DNA of 64,000 nt, from assembly GCA_904420015.1 (NCBI GenBank), contig CAJFTS010000033.1, forward strand, positions 1 to 64,000, written 5' to 3'. Below the pieces are notes generated by a model. That model did not search any database, was not told where the DNA came from, and saw nothing but the letters and a program-made list of their open reading frames with translations. A program made the translations under genes and the position numbers. Below, piece by piece: positions 1,384 through 56,378 of this stretch. Each line of letters begins with the position of its first letter. Positions within the stretch are counted from its first letter, which is position 1. Origin of the DNA: an uncultured Clostridia bacterium. GTDB taxonomy: Bacteria; Bacillota; Clostridia; Oscillospirales; Acutalibacteraceae.

Positions 1384-2862
1384 CTATAAGGCTTTGATAA
1401 ACCGGGCAAAGGCCGCCCGTCCCTTTTCCTCCCGCTTAAAGACGCCGGCGTCCTCGAGCACCCGCTCGAACTTCCGTCCGACCTCCTGCTGCACGATATC
1501 GTGTACATTCGCTTCCGACAAGGCGTTTTCATACCTCGCCTTCATCTCCTGCGCCCAGGGGCGGTGATAATCGGCGACCTGGCCGCTTTTTCCAAGCAGG
1601 AACCGTTCCACCTCATCGAGCTCTCCCACCAGCCGGGCAGGCAGGACCGCCAGGCCCATGACCTCGATTAAGCCGATGTTCTCCTTTTTAATATGCTGTA
1701 CGTCCTCATGGGGATGGAAAATACCCAGCGGATGCTCTTCGCTGGTGCGGTTGTTGCGCAAAACCACGTCCAGCTCGAAATCCTCCCCCTTGCGCCGGGC
1801 GATGGGGGTGACGGTGTTGTGAGGGACGCCGTCCGTCTCGCAGAGGATATCCGCATCCGGATCGCAGTAGCCCTTCCACACCTCGTGAATATGCACCGCC
1901 GCCTCAACAAGGGCATCCTTATCCCGGCCGGACAGGCGAATTACCGACATGGGCCATTTCACCACCGAGCAGCTGAGGCTTTCAAAGCCCGGCAGCTCAA
2001 AATAATAATCGGCGCCCGCTTTGGCCATGGCAAACTCATAATTGCCGCCCTGGTAATGGTCGTGGGTCAGAATGGAGCCGCCGACAATGGGCAGGTCGGC
2101 GTTGGAGCCGAGAAAATAATGGGGCAGCCATTCCACAAAGGAAAGCAGCCGGTCAAAGGTCTGCCGTGTGATCGCCATATCCCGGTGTTGGCGGGAAAGG
2201 ACGATGCAATGCTCATTATAATAAACATAAGGCGAATACTGAAAAAACCACGGCTCCCCGCAGAGGTCCAGCCGGATCATCCGATGGCTGGCGCGGCCGG
2301 GATGGCCCACCTTGCCCGCATACCCTTCGTTTTCCACACACAGCAGGCACTTGGGGTAGTTGGTGCTTTTTTGCTGCTTGGCCGCCGCGATATCCTTGGG
2401 ATTTTTCTCAGGCTTGGACAGGTTGATGGTGATATCCAGGTCGCCGTACTTGGTCGGGGTCTTGTAGCTGATATTCTTCGCAATGCGGCGGGTCTGGATG
2501 TTGTTGCTTACCCGGGAAAAGCGGTAAAACTCCTCGGTGGCCAAAGCGGGCGACTGCCGGTAACGCTCGTAAAACCGGGCGTTTACCTGGGAAGGCTTTG
2601 GAAGGAATACATCCATCAATGCGCTGGCCAGCACTTCCTTCATATCGAACAAATCCTCGATCACACCGGATTTCGCCGCATACTCGGTCAAAACCTCCAG
2701 CAGCTCCGGAATGTCCAAATCCGCCGGTTCCCGCTCCTCGTATTCGGTCAGCCCCAACAGATTTAGCAACCGGTTTCGGCAGTAAACCGCATCCTCCGGG
2801 TCGATCAGCCGCTGTACGACGGCACGGTTTACCAGCGATTCAATGGCCTGAAATACATCCAT
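1384..2862 (-). CDS. galT: UDP-glucose--hexose-1-phosphate uridylyltransferase (Firmicutes class II GalT)
   Basis: 492 aa; YRNRLLNLLG-like N-term, YFLGSNADLPIVGGSILTHDHYQGG and QVADYHRPWAQEMK motifs. Confidence 0.9.
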   Translation of the reverse strand: MDVFQAIESLVNRAVVQRLIDPEDAVYCRNRLLNLLGLTEYEEREPADLDIPELLEVLTEYAAKSGVIEDLFDMKEVLASALMDVFLPKPSQVNARFYERYRQSPALATEEFYRFSRVSNNIQTRRIAKNISYKTPTKYGDLDITINLSKPEKNPKDIAAAKQQKSTNYPKCLLCVENEGYAGKVGHPGRASHRMIRLDLCGEPWFFQYSPYVYYNEHCIVLSRQHRDMAITRQTFDRLLSFVEWLPHYFLGSNADLPIVGGSILTHDHYQGGNYEFAMAKAGADYYFELPGFESLSCSVVKWPMSVIRLSGRDKDALVEAAVHIHEVWKGYCDPDADILCETDGVPHNTVTPIARRKGEDFELDVVLRNNRTSEEHPLGIFHPHEDVQHIKKENIGLIEVMGLAVLPARLVGELDEVERFLLGKSGQVADYHRPWAQEMKARYENALSEANVHDIVQQEVGRKFERVLEDAGVFKREEKGRAAFARFIKAL

Positions 2863-2966: not shown

Positions 2967-3012
2967 ATTGAAAAAACGTCCACCTTCGGCAAAACCCGGA
3001 GGGGGACGTTTT
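2967..3012 (-). terminator. Putative intrinsic terminator of the ylbJ/small-protein operon
   Basis: Reading minus: AACGTCCCCCT...AGGTGGACGTTTTTTC, inverted repeat with T-tract; separated from the stop codon by the repeat copy. Confidence 0.6.
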
Positions 3013-3270
3013 ATTGTTAACGGAAACCCCGGCTCTGCCGGTGAAGATGTCCCGCAAAAAAGCGTTCGCTTTGAGCATCGAGGAAAGCGAGCTGCTGAAA
3101 GCCAGCCTAACGGTGACGGAAGGCTTTCGGTTAACATGGGGATCCGCCTGTTTTTGGGCCGCGGGGCAGGGGATGCAAGGGAAATAAATGTCCGTGCGTC
3201 TTGAGACGCTTGCTGGGAATAAGCCCTTCTAGGGCTTATTCCAGCCTTCGGCTTTGCCGGTGGTTTTAAC
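3010..3270 (+). repeat. Dispersed ~265-bp multi-hairpin repeat, copy 1
   Basis: Shares near-identical blocks with 39452-39718 and 56069-56334: TGTCCCGCAAAAAAGCGTTCGCTTT, ACGGTGACGGAAGGCTT, GCCGCGGGGCA, AATAAGCCCTTCTAGGGCTTATT, GCCGGTGGTTTT. Confidence 0.9.
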
Positions 3271-3272
3271 TT

Positions 3273-3497
3273 TTACAGATCCTCCAGCGAGAAGTCCTCC
3301 TGCGAATACTGCGGCAGCATCGGCGCCCGGCGGGGAATCCGCTTGAGCGGGTCGTAGGAAAACCTGCGGCATTTTCCCAGCGGCTCCATAATGCCCCGTT
3401 TGTTGCACAGCACCATCTTCCCGTCCGCCGAACGGCTTCCCCAGGCACAGTATTCGCATTTCGGATCAATCCGGCCCCCAAAGGGCTTTTTTCCCAC
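3273..3497 (-). CDS. Small Cys-containing conserved hypothetical protein
   Basis: MGKKPFGGRIDPKCEYCAWGSRSADGKMVLCNKRGIMEPLGKCRRFSYDPLKR...; CxxC pair; downstream of ylbJ. Confidence 0.65.
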   Translation of the reverse strand: MGKKPFGGRIDPKCEYCAWGSRSADGKMVLCNKRGIMEPLGKCRRFSYDPLKRIPRRAPMLPQYSQEDFSLEDL

Positions 3498-39090: not shown

Positions 39091-39411
39091 TTGCAGTGGA
39101 TCGGCCTTCTCATCGGGTTATTTAGCTTTGTAATCATCGGAATATTTCATCCCATTGTCATCCAATGTGAGTACCATTTTACTTGGAAAATTTGGCCTGC
39201 TTTTCTGGCGGCGGGATTGATCTGCCTGATGCTGTCGCTCTTTTTGGAGGATGTGTTGTTCTCCTCCCTGCTCAGCGTCCTGGGCTTTGCCTGCCTGTGG
39301 AGCATTGGAGAACTTAAAGAGCAAAGGAAGCGGGTGGAAAAGGGATGGTTTCCGGCAAATCCCAAGCGGGCGGCCGAGAAAAGATCCGAAGGGGACAAAC
39401 GCGAAGGATAA
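39091..39411 (+). CDS. Hypothetical membrane protein (DUF4491-like size and topology)
   Basis: 106 aa, TTG start in track, 3 TM helices. Confidence 0.55.
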   Translation: MQWIGLLIGLFSFVIIGIFHPIVIQCEYHFTWKIWPAFLAAGLICLMLSLFLEDVLFSSLLSVLGFACLWSIGELKEQRKRVEKGWFPANPKRAAEKRSEGDKREG

Positions 39412-39451
39412 GAACCGAAACGGCGGATCCTTTTTTGAGTCCGTCCCTTTG

Positions 39452-39718
39452 TTTTATTGTGAACGGATACCACCGGCTCTGCCGGTGGAGATGTCCCGCA
39501 AAAAAAGCGTTCGCTTTCAGCATCGAGCCAAGCGAGCTGCGAACAGCCAGCCTGACGGTGACGGAAGGCTTCCGGTTAAAATGAGGATCCGCCTGTTTAC
39601 AGGCCGCGGGGCAAGTGATGCCAAGTGAAATAAATTTCCGTGCGTCTTTAAGACGTTTGCTGGCAATAAGCCCTTCTAGGGCTTATTCATACCTCCGGCT
39701 TCGCCGGTGGTTTTGACT
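39452..39718 (+). repeat. Dispersed ~265-bp multi-hairpin repeat, copy 2
   Basis: CCACCGGCTCTGCCGGTGG left hairpin, CCTGTTTACAGG, CGTCTTTAAGACG, AATAAGCCCTTCTAGGGCTTATT, CCGGCTTCGCCGG right hairpin. Confidence 0.9.
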
Positions 39719-56068: not shown

Positions 56069-56334
56069 AAGTCAAAACCACCGGCAAAGCCGGCGGCTTG
56101 AGTAAGCCCTAGAAGGGCTTATTCCCAGCAAGCGTCTCAAGATGCACAAAAATTTATTTCACTGGCATCACTTGCCCCGCGGCCTGTAAACAGGCGAATA
56201 CACATGTTAACCGAAAGCCTTCCGTCACCGTTAGGCTGGCGGTTTGCAGCGCGCTTCGCTGGATGCTGAAAGCGAACGCTTTTTTGCGGGACATCTCCAC
56301 CGGCAGAGCCGGTGGTTTCCGTTCACAATGAAAC
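56069..56334 (-). repeat. Dispersed ~265-bp multi-hairpin repeat, copy 3
   Basis: Reverse complement aligns to copies 1 and 2 end to end. Confidence 0.9.
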
Positions 56335-56337
56335 AAT

Positions 56338-56378
56338 GAAAACCGGACAAGGAGAGGTTCTCCTTGCCCGGTTTTTGC
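56338..56378 (+). terminator. Rho-independent terminator of corA
   Basis: AAAACCGGACAAGGAGAGGTTCTCCTTGCCCGGTTTTT. Confidence 0.85.

Follow-up and report, generated by a model that had tools for sequence, protein, structure and literature searches.

An intergenic repeat found beside terminators in a Clostridia genome is probably a non-autonomous derivative of IS200-type elements

A repeat of ~257 nt, scattered over the genome of an uncultured Clostridia bacterium, is very likely (a probability of roughly 85%) a non-autonomous element that derives from IS200-type (TnpA-only) members of the IS200/IS605 family, lies next to terminators and has been moved in trans. Non-autonomous derivatives of IS200 are a known kind of element; what sets this repeat apart is its target, the terminator hairpin. 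Insertion beside terminators was missed by an earlier note on this DNA, and is the more interesting feature.

The repeat had been described as a three-copy unit. Three copies were indeed present in the window (the whole 64,000-nt stretch analysed), 87–97% alike in pieces, but a whole-genome search returned 36 matches overall, far above chance, the 2.27 Mb genome containing ~27 near-full copies as well as fragments. The near-full copies were 82–92% identical to copy 1 (8–18% diverged from it). The alignment of 25 copies gave an element length of ~257 nt, the consensus starting near GTKMACGGAAACCACCGGC-nnn-GCCGGTGG and ending in CCTCCGGC-TTT-GCCGGTGGTTTTGACT. The span previously given for copy 1 (3010–3270) was a few bases off and has been corrected in Table 1, while the order of the modules was as claimed. 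Subterminal hairpins were present at the left and right ends, and the two resemble each other. The left hairpin reported earlier, CCACCGGC-TCT-GCCGGTGG, is perfect in copies 2 and 3; copy 1, however, has a shorter variant. A possible 46-codon ORF (MSRKKAFALSIE..) was evaluated as a small coding gene and rejected, since about half of the copies carry a frameshift or a truncation in it; the unit is not coding.

One copy (G000:C42:16434-16753; L029) contains a mid-element insert of ~55 nt (TGACGGCTTGACCGTCCGATGCG...). Diverged relatives at five other places in G000 (C36:14021, C53:825, C20:68308, C50:6377 and C33:120055), which show 66–78% identity or have one end only in common, might represent further subfamilies. 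To the left of copy 1 lies a candidate galactose-1-phosphate uridylyltransferase gene (window positions 1384–2862, minus strand).

Table 1. Positions in the window of the three copies, of the hairpins within copy 1 and of the adjacent target sites
Feature	Position	Strand	Basis
Host hairpin with its T-tract (TTTTATT), adjoining copy 1 on the 5' side	2973..3015	+	DNA fold -15.3 kcal/mol, z -5.0
Copy 1 of the probable non-autonomous IS200-derived element	3016..3271	+	Genome and window matches, copy alignment
Left-end subterminal hairpin of copy 1, CCGGC-TCT-GCCGG	3029..3041	+	Alignment, fold
Right-end inner hairpin GCGTC..GACGC, also found in the G301 and G368 IS200 right ends	3196..3209	+	Right-end alignment
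Right-end inner hairpin GCCC-TTCTA-GGGC, whose stem covaries across IS200 right ends	3223..3235	+	Right-end alignment
Subterminal hairpin of the right end, with the 8-nt tip TTTTAACT after it	3245..3271	+	Alignment, covariation
Imperfect terminator-like region GGGGAC..GTCCC and TTTGTTTTATT 5' of copy 2	39390..39458	+	Weak, fold z -0.1
Copy 2	39459..39718	+	Window matches, copy alignment
Copy 3	56070..56326	-	Window matches, copy alignment
Host hairpin AAAACCGG..CCGGTTTT (terminator) with a T-rich spacer, 5' of copy 3	56327..56376	-	Sister-species comparison

The right end of the repeat, alone, was present in 56 of 398 genomes of the host family and, in several of these, it was found directly after an IS200-type tnpA. 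The TnpA of these autonomous relatives matched the Y1_Tnp domain (PF01797, 1.1e-38) as well as solved TnpA structures including that of ISHp608 (2a6m/2vhg), and was ~60% identical to that of IS200F and IS200C. Six copies of the repeat could be aligned across 85 nt with 36 right ends of IS200. Two right-end stems covary strongly, with 93 two-sided changes (22 in shuffles), 98% of cells paired, and a covariation score of 0.474 (0.143 in shuffles). The search for full-length relatives with a transposase turned up IS200 tnpA genes joined to the same ~85-nt right end. This supports the earlier proposal that the repeat derives from the IS200/IS605 family, as do the hairpins located subterminally at either end and the existence of an empty orthologous site (see below). 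Rfam STnc490, an ‘Hfq-binding RNA’, corresponds to the 5' end of IS200 itself (L262:556-679, L278:397-520). A left-end match was seen in a Paludibacteraceae MAG labelled Bacteroidota (L144, JAFSMP010000006.1), suggesting either transfer or mis-binning.

The other proposal of the earlier note, a structured RNA, fared poorly. A regulatory RNA family that follows terminators might well take the form of a conserved intergenic unit with several hairpins, as is the case here. The repeat, however, had no match in Rfam (at a relaxed E-value, chance hits only), and across the 25 aligned copies two-sided changes affected just 2 of the 59 predicted pairs (covariation term, -0.21 kcal/mol). Its ends, further, are common to a transposon, and covariation is strong only in those right-end hairpins that IS200 also has. 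An RNA family is thus very improbable.

As previously reported, no transposase gene lies near the copies; the whole assembly contains a single, decayed Y1 tnpA and no intact one, which weakens the case for present mobility. The assembly is incomplete (58 contigs, 95.7%), so that an intact parent element may be missing from it. An IS200 TnpA, now decayed in or missing from the assembly, would have moved the repeat in trans, presumably by the single-strand ‘peel and paste’ route of the IS200/IS605 family. An ORF for a DDE transposase at the end of one contig (G054) was considered as a parent and discarded as a chance neighbour, since it was not found in the other genomes containing the right end. 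A MITE of a DDE transposon was also rejected: the ends match IS200, and the flanks show no visible target duplication. By the published definition of palindrome-associated transposable elements (PATEs; PMC3119063), the repeat counts as an IS200-derived PATE; it has palindromes near both ends, is too short for a transposase, and has IS200/IS605-like ends.

A hairpin resembling an intrinsic terminator and followed by a T-tract was detected directly 5' of the left end in 22 of the 27 copies, a figure that rises to 26 on inspection by eye. The same terminator test was positive for only 1 of the 27 downstream regions and for 26 of 1000 random windows (2.6%). No terminator was found beside the copy at L025. 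The 40 nt upstream of the copies showed 30% identity to one another, compared with 86% inside the elements; the upstream regions are therefore unrelated and the hairpins are host sequence, which rules out the terminator being part of the element. In most copies xATT/TT precedes the left end, and insertion occurs 3' of a short T-rich target, a trait of IS200/IS605 elements. The hairpin beside copy 1 is bidirectional and is likely to be the terminator of an ORF on the minus strand (3273–3497), that is, a target and not a part of the element; copy 1 is placed on its antisense side. In tandem arrays (L006, L013, L024 (G000) and L111 (G002:C19)), the right end is followed, within ~5–15 nt, by the start of a further left end or of a second copy that has diverged, as if the right end had become a new target. 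Since class C introns likewise insert downstream of Rho-independent terminators (PMC3522654), the repeat might be read as a group IIC intron remnant. This is scarcely credible for a unit of just ~257 nt with no group II intron match in Rfam and with the right end of IS200.

Sister species were found to contain the terminators without the element. Two of them have the homologous terminator, and no element, at the site of G000 C20:49241, while at that of C16:43321 the terminator of sister species G001 passes straight to the flank. At the site orthologous to copy 3, two sister species (L150/L151; G002:C7, G001:C68) have kept the terminator and lack the element; only a lone GC hairpin follows (CCCCCGGCTGCACCGGGG or ACCACCGGCTGCGCCGG), which may be a REP-like relic or a solo end of the IS200 kind. 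These empty sites show that the terminators preceded the insertions. The species that provide them differ too much in sequence for the last bases at the junctions of this element to be fixed, and divergence of the region orthologous to copy 2 precludes an exact empty site there. For the E. coli IS200C copy at tkt, comparison with the empty site placed the insertion exactly 3' of TTTTTTATT, without duplication; in E. coli, too, the terminator is already there at the empty sites.

The autonomous relatives showed the same arrangement, again almost always in the one orientation. Among the tnpA loci of the host family, the detector found a terminator upstream of 49 out of 70, compared with 2 out of 64 downstream controls. 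By eye, the same layout was recognised in most loci from the breadth of Bacillota and in those of Staphylococcus, Salmonella IS200F and E. coli IS200C (the E. coli and autonomous sites were judged partly in this way). Fifteen IS200C copies in E. coli and one Salmonella IS200F were terminator-adjacent. The E. coli copies located after rplS, tkt, icd, yfeX, plaP, pqqU, htpX, xylA, ccmH, potE, gndA and other genes all follow hairpins and T-rich tracts; yfeX and plaP are repeated by two of the loci, and L283, with an unrecognised left end, was left out. One IS200C copy lies within tssG, after GGGGAG..CTCCCC-GGTTATT, a hairpin that is not the terminator at the end of a gene. The pattern was absent from the wider relatives L264 (32% identical, IS605-like), L245 and L254; L234 was truncated.

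Short T-rich targets are common to all IS200/IS605 elements (PMC4227781), and T-tracts supply them. IS200 and its derivatives might therefore insert at T-rich sites anywhere, selection then purging the genic copies, and most copies are indeed intergenic. This explanation is unlikely, given features that selection does not predict: a single orientation, in which it is always the left end that faces the hairpin; the spacing of ~5–11 nt; the tssG copy that follows a hairpin in a coding region; and the antisense placement of copy 1. Selection against other sites could nevertheless make an added contribution to the terminator pattern. We give about even credence to the idea that IS200-type TnpA picks its targets by DNA structure. 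The choice of a hairpin plus a T-rich spacer of ~5–11 nt ending in ATT would make intrinsic terminators, in Bacillota and Enterobacteria alike, the natural landing sites for IS200 and for its non-autonomous derivatives.

The distance between hairpin and cut was 5–9 nt at most IS200C sites and mostly 7–11 nt for the repeat. The median spacing at the targets (~7–9 nt) matches the 8–9 nt that separate the right-end hairpin from the tip (9 nt, ATATTTATT; 8 nt, TTTTGACT). Upstream hairpin scores of at least 18 were obtained for 81% of the real sequences versus 0.4% of the shuffled ones, and in G002 an IS200 right end runs from its GATT tip straight into a second left end. These observations, together with the position of copy 1 relative to its terminator, suggest mimicry of the right end. 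The hairpin, T-tract and ATT would reproduce the geometry found at the right end of the element itself, and TnpA, reading the terminator as a mimic, would attach the left end 3' to an xATT-like target ~5–11 nt past the hairpin; we infer this mechanism from the geometry of the sites.

IS200 is known as widespread, yet rarely mutagenic. If it has an intrinsic preference for inserting 3' of terminator hairpins, this would help explain why it seldom disrupts genes; insertion after terminators spares genes and keeps the element out of transcripts. Such a preference would provide a simple and testable model, that of a single-strand transposase with structure-guided target choice, and an annotation rule for the numerous hairpin-rich intergenic repeats of Clostridia. 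A search of the open literature found no earlier report of terminator-hairpin targeting by IS200, only terminators internal to ISs and, as the nearest precedent there, class C group II introns; earlier reports may exist elsewhere.

The repeat has a right-end layout homologous to that of the IS200 group (IS200C of E. coli, IS200F of Salmonella), with which it shares the subterminal hairpins and the terminator-adjacent position; IS200, however, is ~710 bp long and encodes TnpA, while the repeat lacks tnpA. The PATEs of Haloquadratum, with palindromes near both ends and too short for a transposase, are similar in having IS200/IS605-like ends, no MITE-type terminal inverted repeats and, presumably, mobilisation in trans (PMC3119063, in the passages describing them). 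They differ in being haloarchaeal and of the IS605 type, and those same passages do not mention hairpin-adjacent targeting. REP/BIME sequences are intergenic hairpins linked to an IS200-like TnpA-REP (RAYT) that acts on folded ssDNA (PMC8266576); REPs are single palindromes of 20–40 bp, whereas the repeat is a far longer element with the right end of a mobile IS200. Terminators inside ISs are known as ‘mobile attenuators’ (PMC2965389). Class C (IIC) introns insert in one orientation just after attC stem-loops or Rho-independent terminators (PMC3522654, PMC7923331). They differ from the repeat in using RNA-based retrohoming with a reverse transcriptase and in their unrelated sequence, so that only the target is convergent; if the preference of IS200 for terminators is true, the two would be a case of convergent targeting.
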